Part shown: piece by piece, positions 5,821-53,613 of the stretch
How the letters are laid out: each line of letters opens with the position of its first letter
How positions within the stretch are numbered: the stretch's first letter is position 1
Translations under genes and position numbers: made by a program
NCBI GenBank assembly: GCA_032622095.1
Contig: CP136061.1
Span: 169,637,107 to 169,701,106, forward strand
Direction: 5' to 3'
Source of the DNA: Siphonodentalium dalli
Lineage: Eukaryota; Mollusca; Scaphopoda; Gadilida; Siphonodentaliidae
DNA: 64,000 nucleotides
The notes under the pieces: generated by a model
The model's database searches: none
Told to the model about the DNA's origin: nothing
What the model saw: the letters and a program-made list of their open reading frames with translations, nothing else

Positions 5821-5824
5821 TTAA

Positions 5825-12338: not shown

Positions 12339-12339
12339 A

Positions 12340-26665: not shown

Positions 26666-26727
26666 ATTATACATAAGATAACATTGATAGACTCATATGC
26701 CATATGTTCTAAGAGCAGCAGCATATT

Positions 26728-26845: not shown

Positions 26846-27117
26846 CTAAAAAAAAAAAGAAGCGATACAAAAATATAAGTAATTCAAAATAACAGAGTCA
26901 AAATCTAAATTGGTCCACATTCAATAAATTAATTTTGTGGAATGGCATGCAGATCAAATTCAAAGGCTTGGGTTGAAGGATTTTATTTTGAAGCATGGCA
27001 TGCAATCAGCATGAATAGACAAGTAGCCAACGATGGCGGTTTCCCCCACCTACATGTAGATGGGCAAATCTAGGGATGGGCATTATCAAAATATGCTAAA
27101 CAATAGCACGCCGTCGG

Positions 27118-28006
27118 GGCATGGCATAATATGCCCGTTTCTAGAGTAGAGTGGGGCAAGATTCAATTCATTTGTTTGAAACCTTTGACTTAAGACAAAA
27201 TATTATTTGAACTTGATCTGTATACCAAATTTATTCAGTTCACTCGATTCAATCTAAAGCTATCATCTGGAAACCGCATATTAGGTAAAATCTAAGTTGA
27301 AAAATGGGCATAACTCAGTCAAAATCATGCGGACAGTACCCATATTTGAGCTTGATCTGTATTTCGGGGTGGTAAACTACATGTAATATACCAAATTTGT
27401 TTCAGTTCACTTGATTCAATCTAAAGTTATCATCTGGAAACCGCATATCAGGTAAAATCTAAGTCGAAAAAGGGGCATAACTCAGTCAAAATCATGCGGA
27501 CGAAACCCATATTCTAATTTGATCTGTATTTTGGGGTGGTAAACTAATATACCAAATTTGGTTCAGTTCACTTGATTCAATCTAAAGTTATCATCCGGAA
27601 ACCACAAATCAGGTAAAATCTAAGCTGAAAAAGGGATATAACTCAGTCAAAATCATGCGGACGAAACCCATATTCGAACCTGATCTGTATTTTGGGGTGG
27701 TAAACTAATATACCAAATTTGGTCCAGTTCTCTTGATTCAATCTAAAGTTATCATCCGGCAACCGCAAATCAGGTAAAATCTAAGTCGAAAAAGGGATAT
27801 AACTCAGTCAAAATCATGCGGACGAAACCCATTTTCGAACTTGATTTGTATTTTGGTGTGGTAAACTAACATACAAATTTGGTTCAGTTCACTCAATTCA
27901 ATCTAAAGTTATCATCCAGAAACCAAAACAGGACAGATGGACGACAGACGGATGATGGACGGACAACACATTTACATAATATGACTGTTTTTTCAAACGG
28001 GCGTAT
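27118..28006. mobile_element. Inverted-end element with family C body, right arm
   Basis: Reverse-complement counterpart of 10992-11880. Confidence 0.75.
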
Positions 28007-28977
28007 AAAAATAATTTAAATCAGGGTTATTATTTGTTTTAGTTCGGGCTAAAAATTTAAATTGCAATGCCAAAAAATTACAATCAGAGGGCTGTAAATC
28101 TGGTAAATATGTATGGCTGGCCTAGTTTGCAAACTCATTTCAGATTCTCCTCTTGTGAACTCAACAAATATCTATCAAACCGTTGTTAATTGTTCAAAAT
28201 AAATCGTGAACAACTTTTTGTGGTGCTACTTAGCCCCTACGAAGCTTCGACATTCAATTATATTTTTGAATCGGCTGCCGATTCGATTCAATCTTAGGAT
28301 TTGAATATTTTCGAATCACCCTCTTGGCATTCTTGAGGGTGATAAAAGAACACAGTTTGAAGTTGTTCTAAATTTCAAATTTAGATTTGTTCTCGCTCAC
28401 TGAAGCAAGCACATTTGAAGCAATGCACAATCATACTGAGTCCATAATAATATGTCTATTAGTATATAGCCTGAAATGTTAGCCTAATCGCTGTTTTGTC
28501 TTGCCGCATTGACATGTACCATATACCTCCCAACTACGTAACAGTGCAGTGTATTTCTCATCCGATCATGCAAATATAGGGCACCGTTGGACATATTGAA
28601 AACATTTTACCAATGCGAACAATCAAAGATATGTTCATCTAGGCATTCTTGAAATGTACTTGCAAACAATGTTCACAATATTGATAACACAACCTTTTTA
28701 AAATTCTTCATGATCCATCCGTTGCCCTTGCATGTAATTGCACTCCATTTTACCACATCATAATTGCAAAAGTGCAGTTCATATATCCATATCATATCTG
28801 AAGATCATAAGAGAAGACTTAATTTTCCATAATTCAAGAAATTTCATAATTATTTTCATGTAGAAAGACAACGTACCATAAATAGTTTGCTATATTTAAG
28901 CATTTCATGCGATGCCAAGCCTGCTGATCAATCAAATTTTGGGCTATAAATATCAACAAGTAGTCGCAGACGCCAGA

Positions 28978-29330
28978 CGGCAGTATCCCCACGCCGAAAT
29001 GTGCAGTTCGGGAAGTGCATTATCAATAATGTTTGCGTTCTCCACCGAAATGTGCAGTTGGGGAAGTGCATTCTCAACAAGAGGTGGAATTTTGTCAAAA
29101 AGCCTGGCTTGCGAACTCATTTTAGGACTGACATTTGTGGAAATTAGCCATGTGACGTCGTCCATTTGCACACAAAAAATAAACACAGTCCAATAACTCT
29201 GCTGAAAATATCCGACCGGACCTGGTTTGCAAACTCGTCCTAGATACTGGTCATGTGAACTCATATACCAAAAATCTTTGAAATCCGTTGACATTTGTGG
29301 AAATGAGCCCTGTGACGTCGTCTATTTGCT
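28978..29330. repeat. Short tandem duplication, right arm
   Basis: Reverse-complement counterpart of 9668-10020. Confidence 0.65.
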
Positions 29331-29548
29331 ATTTGGTAAATTCAACAAAAATAATAAACTCCAATAAAGTCCAATAACTCCGGTAAAAATAATTTGGCGG
29401 GGGATAATTAAGGTCTAATATCCATAGCCAAATCCCCAGCTGACCAGGTATAATAATACTGTGGTCTATTTCTAGTTAGTTGATTAACTTGATTAGTACT
29501 TGCTTGAGTGGACTAGCCTGAATACCAACATTTGTTTTCATTGGGACA

Positions 29549-30517
29549 GGGGGGGGGGGGGCGGAAAAAAACTACGGGACACAACGTACCGGGGGGTGGG
29601 GGGGGGGTACCTAGGCATAAAAAATTAACATGTAAAAATTTTCCTTATTCATTTAGGGGGGGGGGGGGGGGTTGTCGGAAAAAATTTGCATGTAATTTTT
29701 TTCCAAATATGTATTTTCAGACTCACAACTTCAATTTTCTCTCATTTTATAGAATATGGATTAACCTTAATATATACATGAGTAGTACAATCCACCAATA
29801 TACATGTTTGTACATGTCATGACATCACGAGGTACAAATCTGCGTTCTACTGTTAGGCAATGACCATTTTAGTCATAATAATCAGGGGTGGGCCGGAAAA
29901 AAACTGCGGGACACAACGTACTGGGGGGTGGGGGGGTACCTAGGCGTAAAAAATTTACACGTAAATTTTTTCCTTATTCATTTAGGGGGGGGGGGGGTTG
30001 TCGGAAAAAATTTGCATGTAATTTTTTTCCAAATATGTATTTTCAGACTCACAACTTCAATTTTATCTCATTTTATAGAATATGGATTAACCTTAATATC
30101 CAAATCATATATACATGAGTAGTACAATCCACCTAAAACAATTTTGGATAACCACTGTCTTGGTTTACATGTGATATTGACCCAATTAACCCTCTTAATA
30201 ATGCCGACTATGTCAGTGTCTACCAGTCGATTGCAGAATTCTACCCTGCGATCGCTTATCTGGCAAATTTATACTGCAGAACTATCCCATGTATTAAACA
30301 ATTTCTCCTCCAATGGTATCAGAAAACAGTTATATGCTGGTATCTCACTCATCTCATTTGCATCTTTTTCAAAGTCGAGGTAATGACTAGTTGTCATTTT
30401 TTAAAGTGCATACAAAGCGTTGCGATCACCAATATACATGTTTGTACATGTCATGACATCACGAGGTACAAATCTGCTTCCTACTGGTAGACAATGACCA
30501 TTTTAGTCATAATAATC
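29549..30517. repeat. Two-copy direct duplication, right arm
   Basis: Reverse-complement counterpart of 8487-9451. Both copies and the 297 bp difference are present, so the duplication is older than the arm divergence. G-run lengths differ. Confidence 0.8.
30068..30397 (-). pseudogene. Possible decayed coding fragment (right arm copy)
   Basis: Mirror of 8607-8936 with the same in-frame TAA and the same terminal TGA. Confidence 0.25.
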
Positions 30518-31487
30518 TAAACTAAGTTGCCAAGCACGTTCTCGTGAATTGTATGCTCCTGTGTTTTTTCCGGTTTCCGGTCAAACCGAGTTGTTGTCCG
30601 GCTGGGGTAGATTTGATTTTTCTGGGGGGGGGGGGGGGGGAAATGGTCAGTGGAAAAAAACTGCAGTTTTTGGGGGGGGGGGGGGGGGGTACCCAAACCG
30701 AAGAAAACAGTTTTTTCCACTCTGTGTCTGCAGTTTTTTTCCGGCCCCCCCCTGATTGGGATGAGTTATTTGTGGCTGCTTTATTCTTCATTGTAATATG
30801 GGGTATGATGTTATATCATGCAGTTACAAATTTAACTCAACTTTATGACACAAATGAAGCCTCCTCTCATAGAGTGAAGGTAATAAACTATTTTGTGAGT
30901 GGATTGTTATTTGAAATTTAAAAAATAAGCTTTAAGTTGTTGGTAACTAAAGAGGAAAAATAAAATATTAGTTTTAACCCTTCAAATATATTGAAATCCA
31001 TTGTTTTTGTCTTCTCTTTATAACTGCTCAGATTCTAAATACAATGAAGATGAGGATATGTGAAATTTAAGATTTTTCATCAGATAGATCCAAAGAAATT
31101 CTTTGTTGAAAATCTCATGCATTTTTGCCTAGATTTATTCAAAATGTGTGTCCCCCCCTCCCTTAAGAGTGCTGGGTACAATAGAAAGTCAGAGCTGGAA
31201 GTATACAATTGAACCAGCTTCAATGGGAAAATTCATCAAATTTATATCTGTATATAGGTACAGCTGCCATGGTACGTTGGAAATTGTATGACCAAATTTG
31301 ACTATTACAATGTAGACAAACTGCTTTGAATTCTGAAAAATATACTTAAAATACCTTAAAATAGATGTAGGTAGAAGATTTAAATACTAATTAATAAATT
31401 GTTTCATTTATCTCACTACCATCAAAATATCTCTGATTTCCATAGATATGACCATGTTCACTTATACATCTAATCAAAACAACTTAC

Positions 31488-31650
31488 TTCCAGACATATA
31501 TTCAAAATATTCCAATGCCAACTTTCCACCCTCTGATAGAATGAAATCTTCTGCCATTCCTGATGTGGCATTTAGTGTTGATATATTGTAATTCTTTTTA
31601 AGTTGAAAGAAAACAATGTCCTCTGCATGAGAACCATGAGACATGTTTAT
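31488..31650 (-). CDS. Internal exon of the unrecognised gene (right arm copy)
   Basis: Mirror of 7357-7519 with splice sites intact (donor complement ACTTAC at 31482-31487). Two missense differences give NYNIS and STLNA. There is no frameshift or stop. Confidence 0.6.
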
Positions 31651-32795
31651 CTGGAATGAAAACAAATAACATTAGATCAAATTACAATTAAACTGCATTT
31701 TTCATTTATTAATCATTGAAATATTTATATGTGTTCGAGTTCAGACAAACATTTAGAAAAACTGACAAACTAATGGCTTAACATAGGCAAAAAAATCAGG
31801 ATAAACCTGATTTTGGTACTGATTTGAGATACTGTGGCAAAGGCAACGACAAAATATTGTTGGCGTTATCAAGCCCGACAAACAAAAATCACAGAAAATT
31901 GATGAATGATGACATAATTATAAGTCAGGCAAAAAAAAAATCCAAAAAAAAACCTGGTTTGCCCACTGATTTCATTTTGTGATAAGCTACATGGTGATGA
32001 AATATTATTAAAATTGGTTCATACCAAATGTAATGAAGAATTACTAATTCATGTTCTGTCCATCTCCTTAACACGTTGACTGCCACAATTAGTTATCTCA
32101 TACTTTTTGTAGTCAATTGTATCCCAGATACATCAATTCAGCAGTTAGCATGTTAACCTACTGGCTTAAGACTTGGAAATCCCCAATCTAGTGGAGTTTA
32201 TTCTAGTAGTCATCAAATACATCCAAAATAATGTGCTGTGATTTAATTATCCTACAGCAGTATCAAACTTCGAATTTGAAGGGAGACTGTATGCAAACTA
32301 GAAATTATACAAACAAATTTAAAAACTGAGGCTATGATAATGTGTGACATCATCCTTTCGATTTTGGTTTGATCTCCTGCTTTAAACTGGTTTTAACTGT
32401 ATATTCTTGGGGAAAAGATATACATATTTCTATTCTCCTAGCTAGATATTATTGGTCAATTCTGGACTCGTCATCGATGTGTTTAGTGTTTAATTAATTG
32501 TCATAATCTATTCTAATTTTGTGAACACTATGAAATTATCAATGTGACAGAAAAAATATTGCGCTATTTTAGCTATGTGGCGAATCAACCGCTGTATAGG
32601 AATTCCGACAATCACCTGATTGGCTGCATCACTTTACTGATAAGTGTTGGGACTGGCTGACACTGAAATTATGCTTGGTGCGGGAATGATAAATCACAAA
32701 TATTTTTTAGATTTTTGAGAGTTTAATTTAAAAAAAAATTTGTTAGCTGATAAAAGTCTTAATAATGTTTCTAGTTCCCAAAGATTACAATTTAC

Positions 32796-32859
32796 CTGCT
32801 CTATTATTATTTCCTTTTGCTTGTGGGTTTTTTTGAGGCCCAGTCTTATGCCAATCTGC
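32796..32859 (-). CDS. Internal exon of the unrecognised gene (right arm copy)
   Basis: Mirror of 6147-6210 with the same frame, acceptor and donor (GTAAAT complement at 32790-32795). About 54 bp of extra sequence lies just upstream in this arm, near 32920-32970. Confidence 0.5.
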
Positions 32860-33239
32860 CTGAAATAATAAAATTCTGTATATAAATATGAGTGTGTGTG
32901 TGTCATGTTCAAGGGAATGTACAAGTATGAATGCACTATCTGTAGCCACATATTTAAATACAATGGTGTTGCTCACTCAGCTTTAGACTAAATAAAATAA
33001 TACCTGTGTTTAAGGTAACGGGGAAGGGGGGGGGGGGGTAAAACAAATAGCCGGAGGGGTGGTGAAGTCATTTTATTTAAACAAAAATTCATTTAAATTG
33101 TCCCACTCAACAATATTTCTGTTCTATAGGGGTGGAGGGATTCTTCTGGGTGTCAGAGATTAGAGTCACTTCCTAAGGTGATTTATGGAATTCAGCTGCA
33201 TAAATTGTCAAAATAATGACTGTTGTTCACTATCTTTAA

Positions 33240-33490
33240 CCCTTGCATGACTGGAGCTTCCTTAAATTTTATGAAAACCCTGTGCCTGTACATTCTTTTA
33301 TATATGCGAGTCTCCTATCCTATAGGGAGCCTCGCATATAAAAGAGAATACATTGGCACAACAATATTTACTTTGACTTTTGAAGCCAATGCATCTCTAT
33401 TATATGCTAGGCTCTCAGTGGGAGACTTGCATATATAAAAGAATGCACTGAGACTCGCATACATATATAAGAGAATATACTGACACAGGA
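33240..33490. mobile_element. Second double-hairpin MITE, right arm
   Basis: Reverse-complement counterpart of 5570-5820. Confidence 0.75.
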
Positions 33491-33494
33491 TTAA

Positions 33495-34370
33495 TCTGAA
33501 GATCCATATAAAGTCTGATTATGATCGGATGAGGACTGTGGTCTGTAGTGTGCGCCAAAATATTTAGTCATACAAAGTACGGTCAAGATAGGAGGCTCCT
33601 ATCCAGAGGTCACCCCGAAGATCCATATGAAGTTTGGTGATGATCGGATGAGGGCTGTAGCCTGTATGGTGCGCCAAAGGATATAGTCATACAAAGAGTA
33701 AATTCCAAGATGGCAACTTTATTTTTTAAACAAATTTCGGTCAAAATAGGAGGCTCCCATCTAGAGGTCACCCCGATGATCCATATAAATTTTGGTGATG
33801 ATTGGATGAGGGATGTGGTCTGTAGGGTGTGCCGAAGGATTTAGTCATAGAAAGAGTAAATTCCAAGATGGCAGCTGGTGGCCATGTATTTCAATGAATT
33901 TCGGTCAAAATAGGAGGCTCCTAGCAAGAGGTCACCCTGAAGATCCATATGAAGTTTGGTGATGACCGGAAGAGGGATGCGGTCTGTACGGTGCGCCAAA
34001 GGATTTAATCATACAAAGAGTAAATTCCATGATGGCCACTGGTGGCCACGTTTTCCAATGAATTTTTGTCAAAATAGGAGGGTCCCATCTAGAGGTCACC
34101 CTGAAGTTCCACATGATGTTTGGCGATGATCGGATGAGGGATATGGTCTGTGGAGTGTGCCAAATGATATAGTTATACAAAGAGTAAATTCCAAGATGGC
34201 CACTGGTGGCCATGTTTTTCAACGAATTTCAGTCAAAATAGGAGACTCCCCTCATCAGGTCACCCCGAAGATCAGTATAAAGTTTGATGACGATCAGATG
34301 ATGGATGTAGTCTGTAGGGTGTGCCAAAGGACTTAGTCATGCAAAGAGTAAAATCCAAGATCCCATCTTC
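33495..34370. repeat. Divergent tandem array, family B, right arm
   Basis: Reverse-complement counterpart of 4690-5565. Confidence 0.85.
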
Positions 34371-34661
34371 TAAACTTGCCTGCAAATTGTTGATGTGAGA
34401 ATCGAAGGAAAATTTGAAGGAAGAAAAAACAAAATGGTGAGTATGCGACAGCTAAAATACAAGTACACATATACTGTTAGGTACTATTATAGACAATGAA
34501 CATAAACACAAATTATTGGAATTTATGGATCACTCACATTTATATAAGGCCAATATAAAAATATTGCTAGATTTACATCCCCTCCGGACCCTATTTTTAG
34601 TCCCCTCCTCAGTTTTTTTTATTTGCATATCTCTTATGCAAATTTAGTTCTCATGCCTTAA

Positions 34662-34906
34662 CTCTTTCATGATGGGAGCTGTGCTGCTGCAGCATTAAAG
34701 ACCCTGTGCCAGTGCATTTTCTTATATATGCGAGTCTCCCAAAGGGAGCTTCGCATATATAATATAATGCACTGGCTTACAAGATCAAGGTAAATATTGT
34801 TAGGCCAATGCATTCTCTTATATATGCAAGGCGCCCTATGGGCGACTCGTATATATAAGAGAATGCATTGGCACAGGGTCATCAGGAAGCTACCGTCATG
34901 GGAGGG
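34662..34906. mobile_element. TTAA-flanked double-hairpin MITE, right arm
   Basis: Reverse-complement counterpart of 4154-4398 with both hairpins and both TTAA sites kept. Confidence 0.85.
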
Positions 34907-35399
34907 TTAATCACCAAATTACATTTCAATGATCCATTTATCAGTCTATTTTCATCAAATAAGGACAATCTAAATTACCTTGTATTATATAAGATAGGAC
35001 ACTGCTTCAATATCTATAACTCTTCATGACCATTTATGTTAGGAAGAATAAAATATAAAAAATAAAATTAGCCCTCCCGCCCCAGTTTTCTGAAAAAGTT
35101 GGACGTAAATCTAGCAATTTATTTTTATTGGCCTAAGAGAATGCACTGCAACAGGATCTGTAATGCTGAACCACCACAGCCTTGGGTTAAATGTGAAAAG
35201 GTGACCTGGACATGGAATACTTGGTCAGGAGATTCCAATTTAAGTTTATAATGATAATGTATAACACAACAGCCATCAAGATAAACACCTCACTGCTGAC
35301 CAATTAGTATCAATTATACAGCAGAGCTGTCAACAAATCACAGGCTTATGTTAAATAGAGCAAGGAATTCAAACTAAAATTTTTTTTAAAGAGGGAATA

Positions 35400-35642
35400 T
35401 TTTTTTCCAAAAAGGACCATAAATCAGTTAAAAATAGTCTGATCAAGCACATATTTGACTCGATCTGTCTTTTGTGCTGAGAAATTCATATACAAAATAA
35501 TTTGGTTCCGATCATATAGAAAATGTTTGAGTTATCGCAACATGCGCAAAGTGTCTACAGACAAACAGACGGATGGACTAATGACGAGTGGTCAATCCGG
35601 ACGTTGACATTACCATACTATGATATGGGTAAACATAAAAAT
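35400..35642. repeat. Family D head, right-arm copy
   Basis: Reverse-complement counterpart of 3418-3660. Confidence 0.75.
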
Positions 35643-35999
35643 TATGTATAAATTTTCCTATGTCCACTAGCATGGGCATTTATCTGATTTTTTTGTCTGT
35701 GAAACACTGGACAAACATGACAGAATGTGTGATAAAACACAATTTATTCCCATCTTTCCTGGCATAGAGACCCTCTCAGAAACCCAGACTAAGAGTGCAA
35801 ATTAATTACATAGAGCTGCAGCCTGTATGGGAGTGTGCTATCTCTCAAAAAGTAACTCTGGTTACGCCTCACACTGATAGCTAAAAATAACTCTAATTAC
35901 CAATTATTAAATACAGATTTACTGTTTGTCTCTCACAGAGCTAAACTTATACCACTGGTAATTAATGAATTGTAGACTGCTATGGTTATCTGTTCAATT

Positions 36000-36549
36000 C
36001 TTAGTTGAAATAGGGCCATAACTCTGGTATAAAATGTCAGATCTAACCCATATTCAAACTCGATCTATATTTTGAGTTGAGAAACTCACATACCAAATTT
36101 GGTTCCTATCAGTTGAAAAAATTGTTGATTTATTGAAGCATGTATACATGAATTCTATGTCAAAGGGCCATAACTCAATTGAAAAATATCGGATCAAACC
36201 CATATTCGAACTCGATCTGTATTTTGGGCTGAGAAACTCGCATACCAAATTTAGTTCCGATCAGATAAAAATTGTTTGAGTTATGACAGCATGCATGAAT
36301 TCGAAGTTGAAAAAGGGCCATAACTCCATAAAAAAAACTCAGATCAAACCCATATTCGAACTCGATCTGTATTTTAGTTCTGATCGGATAGAAAATGTTC
36401 GAGCTATCGCACGATGCGTAAAGTGTCCACGGACAGACAGACAAATGGACAGACAGAGACAGATGATGGACGGACGGACTAACGACGAGTGGTCAATCCG
36501 GACGTTGACATTATGTTTACCATACTGTCTGTGATATGGGTAAACATAA
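36000..36549. repeat. Family D element, right-arm copy
   Basis: Reverse-complement counterpart of 2511-3060. Confidence 0.8.
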
Positions 36550-36829
36550 AAAAGAAAGTGTCAATGACACCGTAGCTCAACTTGGAAAGGGAACCATTTC
36601 ATGTGTTACAGTCAATGGAGCGATTAGGAATGCGGAAAGATGAAAGGTCTAAGTAATACTAGATTATCCATATGAAGAGATATATAAGGTAAAATCCAAA
36701 ATGGTTACTAATGGCTATATTTTTCAATGAAATTCAAAAAACATTTGACAGCTTCCATCTAGTAGATCAATATCAAGATTAATATGAAGTTTGTTGACGA
36801 TCGGATGAGGGAAGTGGACTGTGGGGTGT

Positions 36830-38490
36830 TCCAAATGATTTAGTCATGCAAAGACCCATATGCTTTCAATGTTAACAGCCATGACAAACTTCATGATGAT
36901 CAGATGAACAGTAGAACCTGTAACCAGTGCCAAAGGATTTAGTCATGCAATGAGTAAAATCCAAGATGGCTGCCGGCAGCCATGTTTTATGGCCGAATGA
37001 CCCCAAAATGACTCATCCCCATCAACAAGTCAATATTAACATTCATGACAAATTTCATGATGATCCGACCAAAGGTACGACCTGTAGCCCGTGCCAAAGG
37101 ATTTTGTCATGCAAAGAGTAAAATCCAAGATGGCTGCTGGCGGCCATGTTTTTTGGCCGAATGACCTAATAATGACTCGTGCCCATCTGTATTTCAATAT
37201 TAACATAAATGACAAATTTCATGATGATCAGATAAACAGTAGGGCCTGTAGCAATTTCTAATGAATTGAATTTTGACCAAATGAGCCTAAAATGATTCGT
37301 TCCCATTTACAAATCAATGTTAACATCCATGACAAATTTCATGACGATCTGACCAAAGATACAATCTGTAGCCTGTGTCAAAGGATTTAGTCATACAAAG
37401 AAAAAATCCAAGATGGCTACCGGGCCGTGCTGGCTGCCATGTTTTATGGTCGAATGACCCCAAAATGACCTGTTTCCCATCTACATGTCATTGTCAAAAT
37501 CCGGAACATATTTCACGATGATCCGATTAAAGATACGACCTGTAGCCCGTGCCAAACGATTTAGTCATGCAAAGAGTAAAATTCAAGATGGCTGCTGGCG
37601 GCCATGTTTTTCGGCCGAATGACCCCCAAAACGACTCGTTCCCATCTAAATCTCAATATTAACATCCATGACAAATTTCATGATAATTAGACAAACAGTA
37701 TGGCCTGTAGCCCGTGCTACTGGATTGAATTTTGAATTCCAAGATGGCCACTGCCAGCTATGTTTTTCGGCCGAATGACCCAAAAATGACTCGTTCCCAT
37801 CTACATGTCAATGTCAACAGCCATGATAAATTTCAAAATGATCCGACCAAAGGTACGACTGTAGCCCGTGCCAAAGGATTTAGTCATGCAAAGAGTAAAT
37901 CCAAGATGGCTGCTGGCGGCCATGTTATTTTGCCGAATGACCCCAAAATAACTCGTTCCCATCTACATGTCAATGTCAACAGCCATGACAAATTTCACAA
38001 TGATTCAACCAAAGGTACGACCTGTAGCCCGTGCCAAAGGATTTAGTCATGCAAAGAGTGAAATCCAAAATGGTTGCTGGCGGCCATGCTATTTTGCCGA
38101 ATAACTCCAAAATAACTCATTCCCATCTACATGCCATTGTTAACATACATGACAAATGTAATAATGATCCCAACAAAGGTATGACATGTGCCTGTGCCAA
38201 AGGATTTAGTCATGCAAAGAGTAAAATCCATGATGGCTGCTGGCACCAATGTTTTTAGGCCGAACGACCCCAAAATTACTTGTTCCCATCTACATGTCAA
38301 TATTAACTTCCACGACAAATTTCATGATGATCAGACGAATACTCCGGGCTGTAGCCCGTGCTAATGGATTGAATTTTGAAATCCAATATGGCCGCAAAAG
38401 GACTCGTTCCCATCTACATGTCAATGTCAACACCCATGACAAATTTCACAATGATCCGACCAAAGGTACGACCTGTAGTCCGTGCTAAAG
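36830..38490. repeat. Divergent tandem array, family A, right arm
   Basis: Reverse-complement counterpart of 570-2230 with the same order of units. Confidence 0.9.
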
Positions 38491-39168
38491 GAAATTGTAG
38501 ACAAATCACGCACACACACACACGCACCAACACACACATGGGCGACGGATACCAAGCCATGGCAACAGTTCAAACTTTACAAAGTAAAGTTGAGCTAAAA
38601 GTGTTTAATATTACTTCTTAATTGGGGGTAAATCGACTGCCTGAAATGCATGCTCATGGGTGTTTTTCAGGTGACAAAAACCCCCACCTATGGGAGACCT
38701 CTGCTAGGCCTCCCATACCCTCCAGCAAGCCTACCGGCGGTTGTTTTTCTACTTCAACACTATCTCCGCCCGAAAAAAAGAGGGTTTTTTTTGTGTGTAA
38801 AAATCATTTTTAGTACACGTACCGGGTAATTCATTTGTTTTGGTAAAACCGATTGAGATACACCAATTCATGGCCAAAGTTACCGGCACTTGTATACTCT
38901 ATTTACCACGTTATGCATATGTACGTGTCATGCAGTCAAGCTTGAATCATCTGCATGTTGACTGCAACAACGTTGCGATCAATCAAACGCGACATTGCCG
39001 CGCGAAGGTGCTCATGGGCGCAGACATCTTTGTCAGGATATACCGTACTTAAATAAGTTCGTACCGAAAAGCGACAACTCCAATTAAGCGATTACCATGT
39101 GCGCTCATAGTTTTTTAACCCTAATTTATACGGTATTGTCCTGATTACGACAATAATTTAAACGCCGT

Positions 39169-40295: not shown

Positions 40296-42663
40296 GATTT
40301 ACGGGATATTTGTCTTGTTGAGAAAACGGTACCCCAACTGCCGCCTAGATATATATAAATATATATATATCCGGTACCCCAACTGACCACTATATAGGTG
40401 GCAGTTTTGGCAGTTGGGGTACCATCTCTGTATATATATGAAGGAGTGTGTGCTTTCGTTTTATTCCTGTATTACAAGTTCCTTGGGGTCTAGTAGACAT
40501 GGTAGATTCATGTCGGGGTCATCATCCTCAAAGAATTCCAAGGAGAGGCTCCTTTAGAAATCAGTACCGCAACTTCCAAATATATATATATATATACAGC
40601 CGGTACCCCAACTGACCAGTATATAGGTTCAATATATATATTCATAATTAACTGGAAAATGGAAGTGGGGCTATTGCGAAAATATCTAGATAGTGGAGAT
40701 AGCACAATTACAAGCTGATATATTAAGTAGAATGGTGCAAGCTGTTTCCAATCGGAAATGGTGCATATACATTATGTTGGTGGCCATGAATGGCAAAAAA
40801 TGGTCAAATTTGACAAAATTAATCACGGTCACCATATCGGAGAGCTCAATCACGCGTTATTCAGTAATCACAACAAATAATTGCGTAATTTAACGCTAAA
40901 TGGTGGAACTTGTTGGCTATATATGTGTTTTTTTCCAGAATTACTGACAAATTGGACCCAAAATACAACTTAAAACAGTCATTTACGGTATATAACAGCT
41001 GGTTGCCATGGATACAGAGACCCACATAGCCACCCCAACTCGTAATAGGAACGATCTAGACCAAGAACATGTCCCATGTGCAGAAGGGATGTTATGTTAC
41101 ACCAGCGATATAGATTTACGGGATATTTGTCTTGTTGAGAAAACGGTACCCCAACTGCCGCCTAGATATATATAAATATATATATATCCGGTACCCCAAC
41201 TGACCACTATATAGGTGGCAGTTTTGGCTGTTGTGGTACCATCTCTGTATATATATGAAGGAGTGTGTGCTTTCGTTTTATTCCTGTATTACAAGTTCCT
41301 TGGGGTCTAGTAGACATGATAGATTCATGTCGGGGTCATCATCCTCAAAGAATTCCAAAGAGAGGCTCCTTTAGAAATCAGTACCGCAACTTCCAAATAT
41401 ATATATATATATACAGCCGGTACCCCAACTGACCAGTATATAGGTTCAATATATATATTCATAATTAACTGGAAAATGGAAGTGGGGCTATTGCGAAAAT
41501 ATCTAGATAGTGGAGATAGCACAATTACAAGCTGATATATTTAGTAGAATGGTGCAACCTGTTTCCAATCGGAAATGGTGCATATACATTATGTTGGTGG
41601 CCATGAATGGCAAAAAATGGTCAAATTTGACAAAATTAATCACGGTCACCATATCGGAGAGCTCAATCACGCGTTATTCAGTAATCACAACAAATAATTG
41701 CGTAATTTAACGCTAAATGGTGGAACTTGTTGGCTATATATGTGTTTTTTTCCAGAATTACTGACAAATTGGACCCAAAATACAACTTAAAACAGTCATT
41801 TACGGTATATAACAGCTGGTTGCCATGGATACAGAGACCCACATAGCCACCCCAACTCGTAATAGGAACGATCTAGACCAAGAACATGTCCCATGTGCAG
41901 AAGGGATGTTATGTTACACCAGCGATATAGATTTACGGGATATTTGTCTTGTTGAGAAAACGGTACCCCAACTGCCGCCTAGATATATATAAATATATAT
42001 ATATCCGGTACCCCAACTGACCACTATATAGGTGGCAGTTTTGGCTGTTGTGGTACCATCTCTGTATATATATGAAGGAGTGTGTGCTTTCGTTTTATTC
42101 CTGTATTACAAGTTCCTTGGGGTCTAGTAGACATGATAGATTCATGTCGGGGTCATCATCCTCAAAGAATTCCAAAGAGAGGCTCCTTTAGAAATCAGTA
42201 CCGCAACTTCCAAATATATATATATATATACAGCCGGTACCCCAACTGACCAGTATATAGGTTCAATATATATATTCATAATTAACTGGAAAATGGAAGT
42301 GGGGCTATTGCGAAAATATCTAGATAGTGGAGATAGCACAATTACAAGCTGATATATTTAGTAGAATGGTGCAACCTGTTTCCAATCGGAAATGGTGCAT
42401 ATACATTATGTTGGTGGCCATGAATGGCAAAAAATGGTCAAATTTGACAAAATTAATCACAGTCACCATATCGGAGAGCTCAATCACGCGTTATTCAGTA
42501 ACCACAACAAATAATTGCGTAATTTAACGCTAAATGGTGGAACTTGTTGGCTATATATGTGTTTTTTTCCAGAATTACTGACAAATTAGACCCAAAATAC
42601 AACTTTAATAAAACAGTCATTTACGGTATATAACAGCTGGTTGCCATGTATACAGAGACCCAA
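40296..42663. repeat. 817 bp satellite, first block (three units)
   Basis: GATTTACGGGATATTTG marks unit starts at 40296, 41113 and 41930, exactly 817 bp apart. Each unit has GGTACCCCAACTG three times (for example 40328, 40373, 40602) and one inverted near-copy (40411-40423), alternating with ATATATAT stretches. The segment 40373-40423 can fold as a hairpin. Open frames of 65-66 codons on both strands recur in each unit. They lack independent evidence of coding. The third unit is interrupted after GAGACCCAA. Confidence 0.95.
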
Positions 42664-42679
42664 CCCAGATAGCACACCC

Positions 42680-43350
42680 ACGTTGGGCCAACGTTGGGCC
42701 AACGTCATTTCTATCGTTGGGCCAACGTTGGAGTCCAACGTTGGCCCAACTATGGCTGTTGCCGCTGGCTCGGCGTCGGCTCGACGTCGGATCCCGTCGT
42801 CGACTCGATGGTGGTTCGACGTCGAGCCGACGTTGGTGTGCCGTCGGGCACCGACGTTGAAACGACGTCGAACCAACGGTGAATTCCACTAATAATACGA
42901 CGTTGGGCCAACGTTGGGCCAACGTCATTTCTATCAACGTTGGAATCCAACGTTGGGCCAACTATGGCTGTTGCCGCTGGCTCGGCGTCGGCTCGACGTC
43001 GGATCCCGTCGTCGACTCGACGGTGGTTCGACGTCGATCCGACGGTGGTGCGCCGTCGGGCACCCGACGTTGAAACGACGTCGAACCAACGGTGAATTCC
43101 ACTAATAATACCACGTTGGGCCAACGTCATTTCTATCAACGTTGGAATCCAACGTTGGGCCAACTATGGCTGTTGCCGCTGGCTCGGCGCCGGCTTGACG
43201 TCGGATCCCGTCGTCGACTCGACGGTGGTTCGACGTCGAGCCGACTTGGTGCACCGTCGGGCACCCGACGTTGAAACGACGTCGAATCAACGGTGAATTC
43301 CACTAAGAATACGACGTTGGGGCAACGTTGGGCCAACGTTGTGTTTGGGC
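42680..43350. repeat. Left subterminal array of the transposon (about 207 bp units, three copies)
   Basis: TGTTGCCGCTGGCTCGGCG occurs at 42757, 42969 and 43171. Units are dense in ACGTTG, CGACGTCG and CGTCGTCGACTCGA words and far richer in CpG than the surroundings. Long frames on both strands come from the repeat composition. Confidence 0.95.
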
Positions 43351-45599
43351 ATTGACAGGGACGGATCGAGGCTCCATTCGTAGGGTCGATTCCCCTCACA
43401 TTAGGGCGTCCTTATAAAATTAACATCCGATGAGATACAACAAACCAATATTATTTAAAGTCCCACATAATGTTTGCAACGTCAAAGTATTATAATTGAA
43501 AACAACATTCAATTTCACAAATATGAAACCAGAATAAAATGAAACATACACTGAAACATATAGAAAAAAAAGTGTATGCCGATTTAAATAAAGACAAAAT
43601 GACATGTCATTAGTTGTTGATTTTAAGAATCTTGACCATCTACTCACTCTAAAGAAAAATATTTGTTATTGGTCTCCTGAATAAAGTTATCGACAATGCT
43701 CCATTTTTTTGTTAGCTTATATATCCCTTTACCATACAAAAGAAATGTCTTTATTTCAGCTTAATTTGCGATTTTGTGCTCTCGATAATGTTGGGAACAA
43801 AATATTCAAACATTATGTGGCTTTAAACTTTGGTCAGGTTACATCTTCTTCGAACATCATTATTCTGGAGGGTGATCTGATGTAGATGTGCAAAATTTGA
43901 AACGGCTCAAAGTACATATGATTAAATTAAACCTAGTAATTGCTCATTTACGTACCAGTGCTATTATATAGAGGGAACTCTGTGCATGGTGATATACAAT
44001 GTCACATAAGAAAGAATATCGCGTTTTTGCAATCCGTTTTCTAATTAGTCCATGATACTGTAGATTCTGATTATATAAATTCAATACATGCATGTACAGC
44101 AATTAATTTTATCTGTTGACATATTATGAAATGAGCAATTACTAAGCTTATTTGTATCTATGCACATATGTATGCCACTTGTTGCATATGTTGGAATGAT
44201 TTATCTGGGAGAAATTAAACCCATGGATCCATAAAGATTAATTTATGTATACAAAACCCAACATATTATATGAAATTTAATATTTTCATCATTCCATGAT
44301 CTGTCATAAACTGGATTCAGTGTACTCATGGCTCATGCATATATGTATGCAGGAACTTGGCTTGTATGAAGCAACTGTATTGTAGGACATTGATTGACAA
44401 TTCTTCTGAAGAAATCATATCGCGAGAGAAACCATTTTATATTCACCTCCTTGAATATCTGGAATTTACCATTTTCATAGGTTATCATTACGTTATTAAT
44501 AACTGATGTATCAGATGTATAACTGCCACAACAAGATGAACACACATCATCCTTTCAGTGCCGATTATCGATACACCGATGAATGCCGAGTTTTTTTTGT
44601 GTGCATCTGATTGAAAGCACAACACAGGACAAGTAAGAATTTCCATCCAAGTGAATAACCACAAACTGACGAATTCATGTCGTACATGCATGGTGTTATG
44701 TCGGTCGCGCTGGTGTCAGTCGTGCAATAATATTCACAATATAACGATGTGCAACACGAGAAAGACCATGCTGGAATACTGTACATGTAAGTTCATATCC
44801 CCAAGCCGTTGATGGTTTCGACAGACGAGTAATCTTTGATCGAATCCGCTTGTATAGTACCGTAGCTTATACACAAAATATCCAGATCCAGAAACAGGAT
44901 AGTAAGTAAATAAGTCCTGAAAGAAACAGAGAATAACGTTAGCCCAATACAATTTCTGTGTGCAGCTTGACATTGTCACATAATGTACACATCTTGATAT
45001 ATAAGAACCAGACCAATCCGGGAAATTCCTACATGCATTTGCATGCACGAAAGTACTTTAATTATTTGACCCGTTGCCAATAATATATATAAAATATGGT
45101 GCTGTAATTATTCGAACGGTTCCCGATAGTATCTATAGGTACCGGTACCATATAAAACCTTTGCACGTGGTACGTAATCGTTACATATAGCCTACTGGTC
45201 TCGAGGAATTCGTGAGTTGGAAGGACTTGAGCACGTGCTGGTGACACCGACGCCGGTAGCGGAGGTGTTATGCGCGCGCGAAGTTTTTCTCAACTCATGA
45301 ATATCTCTGAGAACAGCAGGTATCTTATATACCCAATACCCAGGATCCCACAAGAGCCAGTGCATGGTAAGTTTTTGCTCATTGGAATTTTCCCCCAGCA
45401 AATATGAGACCGAACATATTAGTAAATTCGCAAGATATCGAATAATTATTTTAGCAGGTTTTGAATTGTTGTCAGCCGTATCATCAACGATAAAGAGCGA
45501 TTGTGTTTCAATGCCCATTTACTACTACGATGAATATTAAACAGCGGTTTGAAAACTTGCTTTATAAAAAATCTCAGCATTTGGTGACAAATCGGAATG
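43351..45599. other. Interior of the transposon, left part
   Basis: AT-rich. On the - strand a possible acceptor TTTCTTTCAG precedes an open stretch near 44919-44770 that includes DLFTYYPVSGSGYFVYKL, and another open stretch near 45300-45370 includes WDPGYWVYKIPAVLRDI. They may be exons of a captured gene or decayed element protein, but neither is recognised and no full gene can be built. Confidence 0.3.
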
Positions 45600-46500
45600 G
45601 ATATGCAGAACGGGGTTTGAGAACGTGGTGGGGGGGGGGGGGGTAATATGTCAGGGACTTTGACAGAAAACCTTCCTTTGTTGAGGGGTTACTAGTAAAT
45701 TGCAACCACCCGTGAACCAATCTGTTTTCCCAACTTGACCAAGTTTCATCTGGTCTCCCATTCGATGCTGAGTTTGAAATCCAACACACTACCATTTAAT
45801 AGCTATAATATATTCTTTGTATAAAATAATATAATGTACTCTAAATATTACATATCTGTTGGGAACCGAAACTATCCAGACGATCTCAGAAAGATTTTGC
45901 CTGAAATTCAACTTATGTTATTGAAAATTCCAAATCTTGAAATTAGCTCACCGCATAATAACGACCAAAAAGTTAGGCATTCCATGGCTGCCACGATATT
46001 CATTAGAAATTTGGAAATGTAAACTATAGAAATGATCTCAAACAGATTTTGCCTAAGATGTTCAACTTATAAAGTTATTGAAAATTTAAAATGTTGAAAT
46101 TATTTGGGGGGGGGGGGGGGGTAATACATCGACCTCGGCCACATCCATGTTGCGATCACCCTAATTATTTGTTCTAACCCACAAGTTGCCACAACCTCCT
46201 AGAGTGGGCAATCTTACTGTCATGTCAGGGACATACGTGTAAGGTTGTCCCGCCCCATTAACTTTGACCAAAATGTTCAACAGTTTGGCATTTCATGACT
46301 GACACGACATTAATTTAAGTTATTGAAATTTCCAAAATGTTGAAAAGTTTTACAAAAATTGGGGAGGGGTGGTAACACCACAATGTTCAAACCCTGTCGC
46401 CACATCCATTTTTGCACACATTACCATATTTATTCCAACCCACATTGTCACAGATATTAAATCCTTACTGTCAGAGGCGTGCGGACAACGGGGTGGGGGC
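45600..46500. repeat. Degenerate dispersed repeats with G tracts
   Basis: Two G runs followed by GTAAT (near 45630 and 46107) sit in similar contexts (ACATCCATGTTGCGATCACC, CACATCCATTTTTGCACAC), as do ATTGAAAATTCCAAAT-like blocks. These are related pieces of a larger repeat also seen at 46780-47095. Confidence 0.5.
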
Positions 46501-46779
46501 TTAATTGACAACAGCATGTTGATTGCTGATAGCAGACCACCTTTCTGCCAAACTGCTCTAAATGTAGGCCTATATTGGTTAGAACAACACACTATTTCAG
46601 TTGGTAGCTTGGTGAGCCCAAGCCAAGTAATTAATTGATATGAATACTTCAGACAAAATATGGGACGGGTAATATTTGTTTATTGGTTAAAAATGCCCCA
46701 TATGTATCGCCAAAATTATTAAAAATTTCCAAAAGTGGTGCATGTCGCCACCCCCTGCCACCACGTCTAGACTGACCTC

Positions 46780-47095
46780 AAGAATTCCAATTGTTGGAAA
46801 TTTCCAACCTGAGGTCCCCCCCCCACCCTAAGGTCGTAAAAATTCCAACTGATGCCATTTCAGTCCATTCTTTTTACCAAAAGTAGGACAATGTGCAAAT
46901 GATATTCCAAAAACAATTAATAATTGTTGGAAAATCAAACTACGAGAACAATATCAATCTATAATATTGTTGGTGTGACCGTGCGAAAGTTCCAATTAAT
47001 GTTGTGTCATGTATGAAATATCCAACTGTTGACAATTTTGAGCAAAGTTGTGGTGGGGTGGGGGTGTGAGACACCCATGCAACACCCCTGCCGCC
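46780..47095. repeat. Dispersed GTTGGAAATT repeat, copy 2
   Basis: Same ordered blocks as 21690-21985, about equally diverged throughout. This one lies inside the transposon. Confidence 0.7.
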
Positions 47096-47739
47096 ATGTC
47101 CCTAAATCCATGCATTATCACACATGGATCATGAAATTTAGATAGTAATTAGAATGACCTTTTCTTCCTCATACAGTCGGATGCCATCACACGAAACTGA
47201 CTTAAATTTAATTGTTTTCGTTTCTGAGAATTGAAGGGTTAAACATCAAATTCAAACTGTAAGTTGGTTGTGGAGGAAATGAATCCGACGACGCACGCTT
47301 ATCGTTGGAATTCCAAGTTATTCGGCATGATATTCTCAAATAAAGTACTTACCGGTACTTCTTCGGGTCCCTATAGCTGGTGATGGTGTTCCGTGGTGCA
47401 TTATCCAAATAATAATCCATTAAACCGAGAAGCTCACTCAGAACACAAATGCAAGTTCAGTCAATAAACCAAAGCGTTATTTGAAAAAGAAACACGCGAC
47501 CAGTTAAGAATGACGTTAAAATGACGCTACGACGTAATCGACCGATTTCTCCACACTATAACCAACGTTGGGCCATCGTTGGTCCAACGTCGACATCTAA
47601 CGCACTTACTAACCTCACATATCGCCTAGTGCGTTACGTTTTCAACGTCGGGCCAACGTTAAACCAGCGGTAAAACCAACGTTGCCCCAACGTTGGTTGT
47701 CCAACGTCGGGCCAACGTAGCCATGTTTGAAACGCGCAA

Positions 47740-48180
47740 AATCTGACGCATGTCAACGTTGCGCCATCGTTGTACCAACCACAAAAGCCGACGTTGCGCC
47801 AACGTAATTATTCCAACGCAAGTCGACGTTGGGCCATCGTCGTACCAACCACAAAAGCCGACGTTGGGCCAACGTAATTATTCCAACGCAAGTCGACATC
47901 TGGCCATCGTCGTACCAACCACAAAAGCTGACGTTGGGCCAACGTAATTATTCCAACGCAAGTCGACGTTGGGCCATCGTCGTACCAACCACAAAAGCTG
48001 ACGTTGGGCCAACGTAATTATTCCAACGCAAGTCGACGTTGGGCCATCGTCGTACCAACCACAAAACCCGACGTTGGGCCAACGTAATTATTCCAACGCA
48101 AGTCGACGTCGGGCCATCGTCGTACCAACCACAAAAGCCGACGTTGGGCCAACGTAATTATTCCAACGTTGGCCCAACGT
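47740..48180. repeat. Right subterminal array of the transposon (70 bp units, six copies)
   Basis: ACAAAAGC occurs at 47781, 47851, 47921, 47991, 48061 and 48131, exactly 70 bp apart. Each unit holds ACGTTGGGCCAACGTAATTA, TTCCAACGCAAGTCGACG and GGGCCATCGTCGTACCAACC. Diverged copies extend left to about 47565. Confidence 0.95.
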
Positions 48181-48196
48181 ACGTGTGCTATCTGGG

Positions 48197-51100
48197 AAAT
48201 AGCCACCCCAACTCGTAATAGGAACGATCTAGACCAAGGACATGTCCCATGTGCAGAAGGGATGTTATGTTACACCAGCGATATAGATTTACGGGATATT
48301 TGTCTTGTTGAGAAAACGGTACCCCAACTGCCGCCTAGATATATATAAATATATATATATCCGGTACCCCAACTGACCACTATATAGGTGGCAGTTTTGG
48401 CTGTTGGGGTACCATCTCCGTATATATATGAAGGAGTGTGTGCTTTCGTTTTATTCCTGTATTACAAGTTCCTTGGGGTCTAGTAGACATGATAGATTCA
48501 TGTCGGGGTCATCATCCTCAAAGAATTCCAAAGAGAGGCTCCTTTAGAAATCAGTACCGCAACTTCCAAATATATATATATATATACAGCCGGTACCCCA
48601 ACTGACAAGTATATAGGTTCAATATATATATTCATAATTAACTGGAAAATGGAAGTGGGGCTATTGCGAAAATATCTAGATAGTGGAGATAGCACAATTA
48701 CAAGCTGATATATTAAGTAGAATGGTGCAAGCTGTTTCCAATCGGAAATGGTGCATATACATTATGTTGGTGGCCATGAATGGCAAAAAATGGTCAAATT
48801 TGACAAAATTAATCACGGTCACAATATCGGAGAGCTCAATCACGCGTTATTCAGTAATCACAACAAATAATTGCGTAATTTAACGCTAAATGGTGGAACT
48901 TGTTGGCTATATATGTGTTTTTTTCCAGAATTACTGACAAATTGGACCCAAAATACAACTTAAAACAGTCATTTACGGTATATAACAGCTGGTTGCCATG
49001 GATACAGAGACCCACATAGCCACCCCAACTCGTAATAGGAACGATCTAGACCAAGAACATGTCCCATGTGCAGAAGGGATGTTATGTTACACCAGCGATA
49101 TAGATTTACGGGATATTTGTCTTGTTGAGAAAACGGTACCCCAACTGCCGCCTGGATATATATAAATATATATATATCCGGTACCCCAACTGACCACTAT
49201 ATAGGTGGCAGTTTTGGCTGTTGGGATACCATCTCTGTATATATATGAAGGAGTGTGTTCTTTCGTTTTATTCCTGTATTACAAGTTCCTTGGGGTCTAG
49301 TAGACATGATAGATTCATGTCGGGGTCATCATCCTCAAAGAATTCCAAAGAGAGGCTCCTTTAGAAATCAGTACCGCAACTTCCAAATATATATATATAT
49401 ATATATATACAGCCGGTACCCCAACTGACCAGTATATACATGTAGGTTCAATATATATATTCATAATTAACTGGAAAATGGAAGTGGGGCTATTGCGAAA
49501 ATATCTAGATAGTGGAGATAGCACAATTACAAGCTGATATATTTAGTAGAATGGTGCAACCTGTTTCCAATCGGAAATGGTGCATATACATTATGTTGGT
49601 GGCCATGAATGGCAAAAAATGGTCAAATTTGACAAAATTAATCACGGTCACCATATCGGAGAGCTCAATCACGCGTTATTCAGTAACCACAACAAATAAT
49701 TGCGTAATTTAACGCTAAATGGTGGAACTTGTTGGCTATATATGTGTTTTTTTCCAGAATTACTGACAAATTGGACCCAAAATACAACTTAAAACAGTCA
49801 TTTACGGTATATAACAGCTGGTTGCCATGTATACAGAGACCCAAATAGCCACCCCAACTCGTAATAGGAACGATCTAGACCAAGGACATGTCCCATGTGC
49901 AGAAGGGATGTTATGTTACACCAGCGATATAGATTTACGGGATATTTGTCTTGTTGAGAAAACGGTACCCCAACTGCCGCCTAGATATATATAAATATAT
50001 ATATATCCGGTACCCCAACTGACCACTATATAGGTGGCAGTTTTGGCTGTTGGGGTACCATCTCTGTATATATATGAAGGAGTGTGTGCTTTCGTTTTAT
50101 TCCTGTATTACAAGTTCCTTGGGGTCTAGTAGACATGATAGATTCATGTCGGGGTCATCATCCTCAAAGAATTCCAAAGAGAGGCTCCTTTAGAAATCAG
50201 TACCGCAACTTCCAAATATATATATATATATACAGCCGGTACCCCAACTGACCAGTATATAGGTTCAATATATATATTCATAATTAACTGGAAAATGGAA
50301 GTGGGGCTATTGCGAAAATATCTAGATAGTGGAGATAGCACAATTACAAGCTGATATATTTAGTAGAATGGTGCAACCTGTTTCCAATCGGAAATGGTGC
50401 ATATACATTATGTTGGTGGCCATGAATGGCAAAAAATGGTCAAATTTGACAAAATTAATCACGGTCACCATATCGGAGAGCTCAATCACGCTTTATTCAG
50501 TAAGCACAACAAATAATTGCGTAATTTAACGCTAAATGGTGGAACTTGTTGGCTATATATGTGTTATTTTCCAGAATTACTGACAAATTGGACCCAAAAT
50601 ACAACTTAAAACAGTCATTTACGGTATATAACAGCTGGTTGCCATGGATACAGAGACCCACATAGCCACCCCAACTCGTAATAGGAACGATCTAGACCAA
50701 GAACATGTCCCATGTGCAGAAGGGATGTTATGTTACACCAGCGATATAGATTTACGGGATATTTGTCTTGTTGAGAAAACGGTACCCCAACTGCCGCCTG
50801 GATATATATAAATATATATACAGCCGGTACCCCAACTGACCAGTATATAGGTTCAATATATATATTCATAATTAACTGAAAAATGGAAGTGGGGCTATTG
50901 CGAAAATACCTAGATAGTGGAGATAGCACAATTACAAGCTGATATATTTAGTAGAATGGTGCAACCTGTTTCCAATCGGAAATGGTGCATATACATTATG
51001 TTGGTGGCCATGAATGGCAAAAAATGGTCAAATTTGACAAAATTAATCACAGTCACCATATCGGAGAGCTCAATCACGCGTTATTCAGTAACCACAACAA

Positions 51101-51450
51101 ATAATTGCGTAATTTAACGCTAAATGGTGGAACTTGTTGGCTATATATGTGTTTTTTTCCAGAATTACTGACAAATTAGACCCAAAATACAACTTTAATA
51201 AAACAGTCATTTACGGTATATAACAGCTGGTTGCCATGTATACAGAGACCCAAATAGCCACCCCAACTCGTAATAGGAACGATCTAGACCAAGGACATGT
51301 CCCATGTGCAGAAGGGATGTTATGTTACACCAGCGATATAGATTTACGGGATATTTGTCTTGTTGAGAAAACGGTACCCCAACTGCCGCCTAGATATATA
51401 TAAATATATATATATCCGGTACCCCAACTGACCACTATATAGGTGGCAGC
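48197..51450. repeat. 817 bp satellite, second block (about four units)
   Basis: Continues the interrupted unit at AAATAGCCACC. Unit starts lie at 48286, 49103, 49932, 50749 and 51341 (spacings 817, 829, 817, 592). The 829 bp unit gains AT repeats and a few bases. The 592 bp unit has lost about 230 bp between two AT-rich stretches, removing the hairpin segment. The array stops after AGGTGGCAG near 51449. Confidence 0.95.
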
Positions 51451-51821: not shown

Positions 51822-53613
51822 CATTGAAGTCACCTTATTAACCCTTTCTATATTACAGCACCATTGGCGTGTAGTTACCTTATTAACCATTCTATATTAA
51901 ATCATTAATTGACAGGTAGTTACCTTATTAACCCTTTCTATACTAAGTAACATTGGTGAGTAGTTACATTATTAACCCTTTCTATATTAAAGCACCATTG
52001 ATGTGAAGTTACCTTATTAACCCTTTCTTTATTAAAGCATCATTGACGCGTAGTTACCTTATTAACCCTTTCTATATTAAAATATCATTGATGTGTAGTT
52101 ACAATGTTAACCCTTTCTATAGTATAGCATCATTGGCGGGTAGTTGGCTCCTTAACTCTGTATATACCAAAGTATCATTGTCGTATATAGTTACCTTATT
52201 AACCCTTTCTATACTAAGTACCGTTGGCGTGTAGTTGCCTTATTAACCCTTTCTATATTAAAGCATTAATTGACAGGTAGTTACCTTATTAACCCTTTCT
52301 ATACTAAGTATCATTGGTGAGTAGTTGCATTATTAACCCTTTCTATATTAAAGCGCCATTGGCGGGTAGTTACCTTATTAACCATTTATGTATTAAAGCA
52401 TCATTGACGTGTAGTTACCTTATTATAACCCTCTCTATATTAAAGCATCATTATTGCTGGGTAGTTATCTTATTAACCCGTTCTATACTAAGTATCATTG
52501 GTGAGTAGTTACAGTATTAACCCTTTCTATATTAAAGCATCATTGACGTGAAGTTACCTTATTAACCATTTCTGTATTAAAGCAGCATTGACATGTAGTT
52601 GTTAACCCTTTCTATATCAAAGCATCGTTGACGGGTAGTTGCCTAATTAACCCTCTATATACTAAAGTATCATTGTCGTGTAGTTACCTTACGGTTACCC
52701 ACCCTTTCTATACTAAGTATCATTGGCGTGTAGTTACCTTATTAACCTTTTCTATATTAAAGCATTAATTGACAGGTAGTTACACTAAACAACCCTTTCT
52801 ATACTAAGTATCATTGGTGAGTAGTTACATTATAAACCATTTCTATATTAAAGCGCCATTGACGGGTAATTACCTTATTAACCATTTTTGTACCAAAGCA
52901 TCATTGACGTGCAGTTACCATATTATAACACTTTCTATATTAAAGCATCATTGACTGATAGTTACCATATTAACCCTTTCTATATTAAAGCACCATTGGC
53001 GTGTAATTACCTTATTAACCCTTTCTACGTTGAAGCAATAATTGACAGGCAGTTACCTTATTAACCCTTTTTATAATGAGTATCATTGGTGATTAGTTAC
53101 ATTATTAACCCTTTCTACAATAAAGCATCATTGACATGTAGTTATCATAGTAGCCAGTTATATATTAAAGCATCATGGACGGTAGTTACCATATTAACCC
53201 TTTCTATATTAAAGCACCATTGGCGTGTAATTACCATATTAACCCTTTCTATATTAAAACATCATTGACGTGTAGTTACCCTATTAGCCCTTTCTATATT
53301 TAAGCATCATTGACGTGTAGAACTTTATCTTATTAACCCTTTCTTTATTAAAGCATCATTGACATGTAGTTACCTTAGTAACCATTTCTACACTAAAGCA
53401 TTATTGACGGGTAGTTACCTTATTAACCCTTTCTATATTAAAGCATCATTGACAAGAAGTTAAATTATTAACCTTCTATAATAAGTATCATTGCCGTGTA
53501 GTTAGTTACCTTATAAAACCTTTCTATATTAAGACGTCGATCATTGACGGGTAGTTGTTACCTTATTAATCATTTATGTATTCAAGCATCATTGACGAGT
53601 AGTTACCTTATTA
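51822..53613 (+). repeat. 45 bp minisatellite, about 40 copies
   Basis: The unit is roughly CATTGACGTGTAGTTACC, TTATTAACCCTTTCTATA and TTAAAGCAT. CATTG marks at 52041, 52086 and 52131 give an exact 45 bp spacing. Variants (TTAATTGACAGG, TACTAAGTATCATTGG) recur at intervals, suggesting higher-order amplification. Short frames through it are artefacts. Confidence 0.95.

Follow-up and report, generated by a model that had tools for sequence, protein, structure and literature searches.

A non-coding 5.5-kb transposon of a scaphopod mollusc with two different subterminal arrays, probably a relative of animal CACTA/EnSpm elements

The DNA considered here is a 64-kb window (64,000 nucleotides) of contig CP136061.1 of the scaphopod Siphonodentalium dalli. 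At 42664-48196, in positions of the window, lies a transposon that interrupts one unit of a local host tandem array of ~817 bp (40296-51449), and each of its ends carries a subterminal array of its own. The features are as follows.

40296-42663, + strand: host ~817-bp tandem array, portion left of the insertion
42662-42663, + strand: left target-site duplication, AA
42664-48196, no strand assigned: complete non-autonomous DNA transposon, 5,533 bp, with inverted ends, a 2-bp duplication and an empty site preserved in the tandem array around it
42664-42697, + strand: left terminal inverted repeat, CCCAGATAGCACACCCACGTTGGGCCAACGTTGG (inverted-repeat match, 94%)
42680-43339, + strand: left subterminal array, about three units, spaced 212 and 202 bp
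43340-47561, no strand assigned: AT-rich interior without recognisable coding sequence; ~1.9 kb of typical copies missing at ~46760
47353-47420, - strand: exon-like stretch, with ATG, 22 intact codons (MDYYLDNAPRNTITSYRDPKKY...) and a CG/GTAAGT donor
47562-47745, + strand: irregular core words inward of the right array
47746-48168, + strand: right subterminal array, six 70-bp units, each made up of two related halves of 35 bp
48163-48196, - strand: right terminal inverted repeat, CCCAGATAGCACACGTACGTTGGGCCAACGTTGG when read on the - strand (inverted-repeat match, 94%)
48197-48198, + strand: right target-site duplication, AA
48197-51449, + strand: host ~817-bp tandem array, portion right of the insertion, with empty sites at 49829 and 51238

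The terminal arms are 34 nt each and 94% complementary; both termini are inverted CCCAGATAGCACAC and start with CCC. The empty site, GACCCAAATAGCC, is kept in two host-array units of the same subtype (49829 and 51238), and the filled site reads GACCCAA, then the element, then AAATAGCC; insertion therefore duplicated the 2 bp AA. Duplications of 2 bp flank 13 of 13 complete copies of 5.5-13 kb (AA, AA, TA, TT, AT, CT, AT, AT, AG, AT, TT, TG, AA), and thus have no fixed sequence, though they are dominated by A and T. An earlier note on this DNA had called the stretch a transposon and placed its ends at 42664 and 48196; the duplications and the empty site bear out the first claim, and the coordinates were correct to the base. 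Two subtypes of the ~817-bp host unit occur where the element has inserted, namely ACCCAAATAG and ACCCACATAG.

The host genome (2.23 Gb, nine contigs, that is, nine chromosomes) was searched with the reversed pattern as control; the listings cover roughly the first 100 ends per search. The end pattern of the family occurs at 272 places, against none in the control; these are the other copies with such ends that the earlier note had proposed to look for. Among the matches listed there are about 32 end pairs, 5.5-13.1 kb apart and mostly near 7 kb. Eight copies besides that of the window were read whole: they have left and right cores in common at ~90-97% identity, and their middles vary by insertions and deletions. 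The copy at C3:58674960-58685850, on a different chromosome and 10.9 kb long, is matched by the window copy along the latter's length at 99.2% and 99.4% identity, except for 5.35 kb of its middle that the window copy lacks; typical 7-kb copies hold 1.87 kb at the deletion point, so DNA has been lost from the window copy at that place. The element is young, multi-copy and non-coding. One family copy of 13.1 kb (C1:142183141-142196288) has an insert of ~6.5 kb, with inverted arms of ~1.3 kb and a ~111-bp tandem array, which is probably a nested element.

No transposase match was found in the reading frames of the window copy and the eight others, no Pfam match among those of a typical 7.4-kb copy, and no similarity when Harbinger and EnSpm proteins were compared with the nine elements. 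The exon-like frame at 47353-47420 is open in seven of the nine copies, and TA repeats interrupt it in the remaining two; from its sequence it is possibly the leftover first exon of a transposon gene.

The two arrays differ in unit and agree in content. Tandem Repeats Finder gives the left array a consensus of 202-212 bp with 90-93% matches, and the right one 6.0 units of 70 bp with 95% matches. The earlier note had spoken of units of about 207 bp and of exact 70-bp units: the lengths hold, and the 70-bp units, though all of one length, differ in sequence. CpG-dense CGTTGGGCCAACG words are restricted to the element ends; in the window, all 16 occurrences of TTGG[GC]CCAA lie within the element and near its ends, and 28 of the 33 occurrences of CGTTGG fall inside it. 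Observed/expected CpG is 1.56 in the left array and 1.62 in the right, as against 0.78 in the interior and 0.72 in the whole window, and GC content, 0.31-0.42 in the interior, rises as high as 0.60 in the left array, in keeping with the contrast between CpG-dense arrays and AT-rich interior first described from the sequence. With terminal repeats removed, the arrays have 35 ten-base words in common and a longest common word of 18 bases; dinucleotide shuffles give a mean of 1.9 such words (maximum 10) and a longest word of at most 14 bases. The likeness is thus far above chance, and the proposal of one core word at both ends stands. The core words are near-palindromic (ACGTTGGGCCAACGT), and ACGT words recur at distances of 11, 35 and 46 bp in the left and right arrays alike. 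CpG positions show a period of ~11.75 bp in both arrays; as tandem repetition inflates the apparent strength of such a period, the coincidence of the two periods alone is counted.

Unit number varies among copies, from one to four on the left and from three to six on the right, a comparison that the earlier note had proposed. Units at the same position are 0.964-0.978 identical between copies, and units within one copy 0.932; the arrays are therefore mainly inherited through transposition. The idea that they were amplified independently at each end survives in part: unit lengths do differ (212/202 against 70), but the arrays are not re-amplified in each copy, being inherited with changes of unit number. 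CpG transitions are not in excess in young or in diverged copies, a weak test in that the copies are not independent, and so there is no trace of the methylation-driven decay expected from germline methylation.

These features can be placed by comparison with described groups. In the TRC group of animal CACTA-related elements (PMC1636069), the inverted repeat starts with CCC, duplications are of 2 bp, and the transposase is Transposase_21. The present element has a CCC-start inverted repeat at both ends (CCCAGATAGCACAC), 2-bp duplications without fixed sequence in all 13 complete copies and at the empty site, and the subterminal repeats of a short motif that are characteristic of CACTA elements (PMC2613891). 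Its start and its target duplication are those of SmTRC1 of Schistosoma and of the TRC elements of T. castaneum and A. aegypti; the Tribolium end CCCTAGTAGCAC agrees with CCCAGATAGCAC at 9 of 12 bases, and the Aedes end CCCAGTCAAC at 7 of 10 (PMC1636069). Those elements, however, encode Transposase_21, whereas this one is non-coding, and long subterminal arrays like the present ones are not described for them, SmTRC1 having one tandem-repeat region (PMC1636069). Hydra offers a further parallel in Spongebob_HMa / EnSpm-4N1_HM (CCCAGCCAACATTG; terminal inverted repeat CCCAGCCAACATTGAC), with a CCCAG start, a 2-bp duplication and a length of 5.8 kb; within its terminal repeat stands CCAACATTG (PMC4298943), which closely resembles the core word CCAACGTTGG. 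This likeness is one of the printed terminus, and in the available part of that source subterminal arrays are not described for Spongebob (PMC4298943). Plant CACTA elements (Spm/En, Tgmt*) also combine a short terminal repeat with asymmetric subterminal repeats of GC-rich words, which are cis-determinants bound by a TNPA-like protein; unlike the present element they have a CACTA terminus and a 3-bp duplication, and their motif of 10-20 bp, in direct and inverted copies, is not built into tandem units such as those of 207 and 70 bp here (PMC2613891).

The reading best suited to these comparisons, to which a probability of about 0.72 is given, is that the element belongs with the cut-and-paste transposons of the animal CACTA/EnSpm (TRC) group, is itself non-autonomous, and has in its end arrays candidate sites for a protein supplied in trans. 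It would then be a new family with unusually large and orderly subterminal arrays, next to the animal CACTA branch, and not an undescribed type of element. In this the earlier note, which could match the element to no described superfamily and saw in it a candidate for a new type, is not followed: CCC-terminal repeats, 2-bp duplications and subterminal repeats have been described for animal TRC/EnSpm elements (PMC1636069, PMC4298943), and the matching end structure is what that note itself had named as grounds for giving up the claim.

Several points weigh against this placement. The termini resemble each other over a short stretch (beyond CCC, 6 of 9 bases agree; P ~0.01), and CACTA-group elements mostly end in CA..TG (PMC12730594), CCC being the animal TRC variant. 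No family copy with a transposase was found among the copies examined, and no match to Transposase_21, DDE_Tnp_4 or Plavaka lies, as its own gene, within 20 kb of a listed end. The autonomous version envisaged in the earlier note is thus absent from the copies examined, although Transposase_21 itself is present in the host genome at at least 78 loci, none linked to the ends; CACTA membership accordingly rests on end structure. Many of these loci have long open frames and are repeated at equal scores, ten of them carrying one 909-residue frame at equal score, so that a source of CACTA transposase in the genome is likely. Repeated loci with the 909-residue frame include C1:6370116, C1:95503381 and C6:1785449. 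One lead (L082), in which the 14-bp terminus is followed inward by different DNA and a spliced gene with EnSpm/Transposase_21-like exons lies ~5-12 kb away, was rejected: the DNA outside the terminus is also common to all three copies, and hence no element ends there. The N-terminal exon does resemble the beginnings of other Transposase_21 proteins. A spliced gene of EnSpm/Transposase_21 type lies at C3:28867929-28880428; its N-terminal exon is 26-32% identical to stretches just upstream of other Transposase_21 domains.

The end plan extends beyond the family. CCCAGATAGC alone occurs at 2,547 places in the genome, against 1,237 in the reversed control, far more ends than the window family supplies. 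Four other end pairs, when read, had termini of the CCCAGATAGCATGAC and CCCAGATAGCAATAATAT types, likewise followed by GTTGGGCCAAC. The joint pattern CCCAGATAGCAN{2,12}GTTGGGCCAAC is found at 504 places and at none in the control; nearly all the matches listed are 29 bases long, with spacers CACNNAC, TGACTAC/TGACATG, ATAATAT and ATGATAC. At least two further, separate families thus follow one end plan: terminus and core word at a fixed spacing, as would be expected of a bipartite protein site. Members of the TGAC family are mostly 0.7-1.6 kb long. Three pairs of other families were read at their ends; a clear 2-bp duplication (CT) was present in one and not in two. A 7.15-kb pair of TGAC type (C2:33955503-33962655) has, where sampled, a ~165-bp satellite whose orientation on one side is opposite to that on the other; it was rejected as an autonomous candidate, since the three stretches sampled are that satellite and contain no gene. 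IMG/VR contigs gave no match to the end pattern, and a literature search by end sequence returned, among the results listed, chance primer matches only.

How such ends might work can be outlined on the plant model. A transposase from another element, perhaps with a separate TNPA-like DNA-binding protein, would bind the terminus as a bipartite site (CCCAGATAGCA, seven bases, GTTGGGCCAAC). Numerous protein molecules would gather on the near-palindromic CGTTGGGCCAACG words, which both arrays space at 11, 35 and 46 bp, and the loaded arrays would then pair the ends of the element, much as TNPA pairs those of Spm/En by way of their subterminal repeats (PMC2613891). One module, tandem-duplicated over different stretches at the two ends, would give the different unit lengths, and unequal exchange would let unit number drift (one to four on the left, three to six on the right). 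The right array, just upstream of the exon-like ATG, may also have served as promoter in an ancestral autonomous copy. By analogy with the plant elements, it is plausible that the arrays are sites for a protein from an autonomous relative. The earlier suggestion of many binding sites for one protein gains from the presence of the word at both ends, in all copies, and in other families at a fixed distance from the terminus; the binding itself stays a prediction.

The arrays might, on the other hand, have no role in transposition, and be passive growth of satellites in the ends of a CACTA element. Unit number varies freely between copies within the ranges given above, and a copy with one full left unit has still spread, as passive growth would allow; yet the core word is retained at a fixed distance from the terminus in all families, both arrays keep the same spacing grammar, and in young copies CpG core positions have changed in 1 of 555 cases against ~2% elsewhere (the copies are not independent). 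Passive growth is on this evidence rather unlikely. Doubtful to a greater degree is an undescribed lineage with a non-Transposase_21 transposase of its own, recognising CCCAGATAGCA and GTTGGGCCAAC. It would account for ends without a linked transposase and without the CA..TG of most CACTA-group elements, and for the precise bipartite plan common to several families; but the described TRC/CACTA plan is just this combination of a CCC start, subterminal repeats and a 2-bp duplication that is free in sequence, and for non-autonomous families it is usual that no autonomous copy turns up, here in a search of limited reach. A fuller version of the idea, and an equally improbable one, makes these elements a separate near-CACTA lineage, in which the transposase would read the bipartite end (CCCAGATAGCA, seven free bases, GTTGGGCCAAC) together with a module at helical spacing, and the ~7-kb non-coding members would carry satellite arrays and so seed satellites genome-wide.

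Other superfamilies are further away. PIF/Harbinger is excluded, as it needs a 3-bp TWA duplication where 2 bp is observed, and Tc1/mariner likewise, since its TA duplication is not fixed here. ISL2EU, or another element of the Harbinger group (PHIS), is a very unlikely source: ISL2EU also gives 2-bp duplications, and more than 150 DDE_Tnp_4 matches show that the group thrives in this genome, but ISL2EU duplications are AT only, those of Harbinger TWA and of others 3 bp (PMC4482050), as against the AA, TA, TT, CT, AG and TG also seen here. None of the 30 DDE_Tnp_4 loci examined has word arrays or the full terminus, and protein similarity to the elements is lacking. Scarcely credible is a Helitron/Helentron-type carrier of satellites, as in oysters, or a Foldback/Tetris-like element. 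The short tandem arrays within a dispersed non-autonomous element recall the Cg_HINE Helentrons of oysters, and some longer copies have inverted satellite arms; Cg_HINE elements, however, are of the rolling-circle type, with central arrays and no target duplication (PMC7492417), and Helitrons at large lack target duplication and have central tandem repeats (PMC7492417). The window family, by contrast, has inverted ends, 2-bp duplications and subterminal arrays, and the inverted arms are mid-element inserts or variants in some copies, not ends.

If the placement with animal CACTA elements is right, an animal genome too has the kind of end known from plant CACTA elements, composed of many sites for a single protein, and shows it with unusual clarity: the two satellites differ in unit length but obey one spacing grammar, and the end plan is common to several families. 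The arrays offer concrete candidate sites on which to study end recognition by a CACTA-type transposase, and suggest that transposon ends can found dispersed satellite arrays.

Two other repeats share the window. Just past the ~817-bp array, at 51828-53613, lies a 45-bp satellite of ~39 copies. A huge inverted duplication occupies 1-39029, with a spacer at 15756-23199; its arms pair 378-6080 with 32976-38682 (99.7%), 6087-13931 with 25067-32919 (99.55%), 13921-15755 with 23200-25038 (99.5%) and 1-350 with 38680-39029 (100%). The arms contain satellites of ~163 and ~150 bp and extend beyond the start of the window; the whole may represent a palindrome or a giant foldback-type element, or may have come about in assembly.

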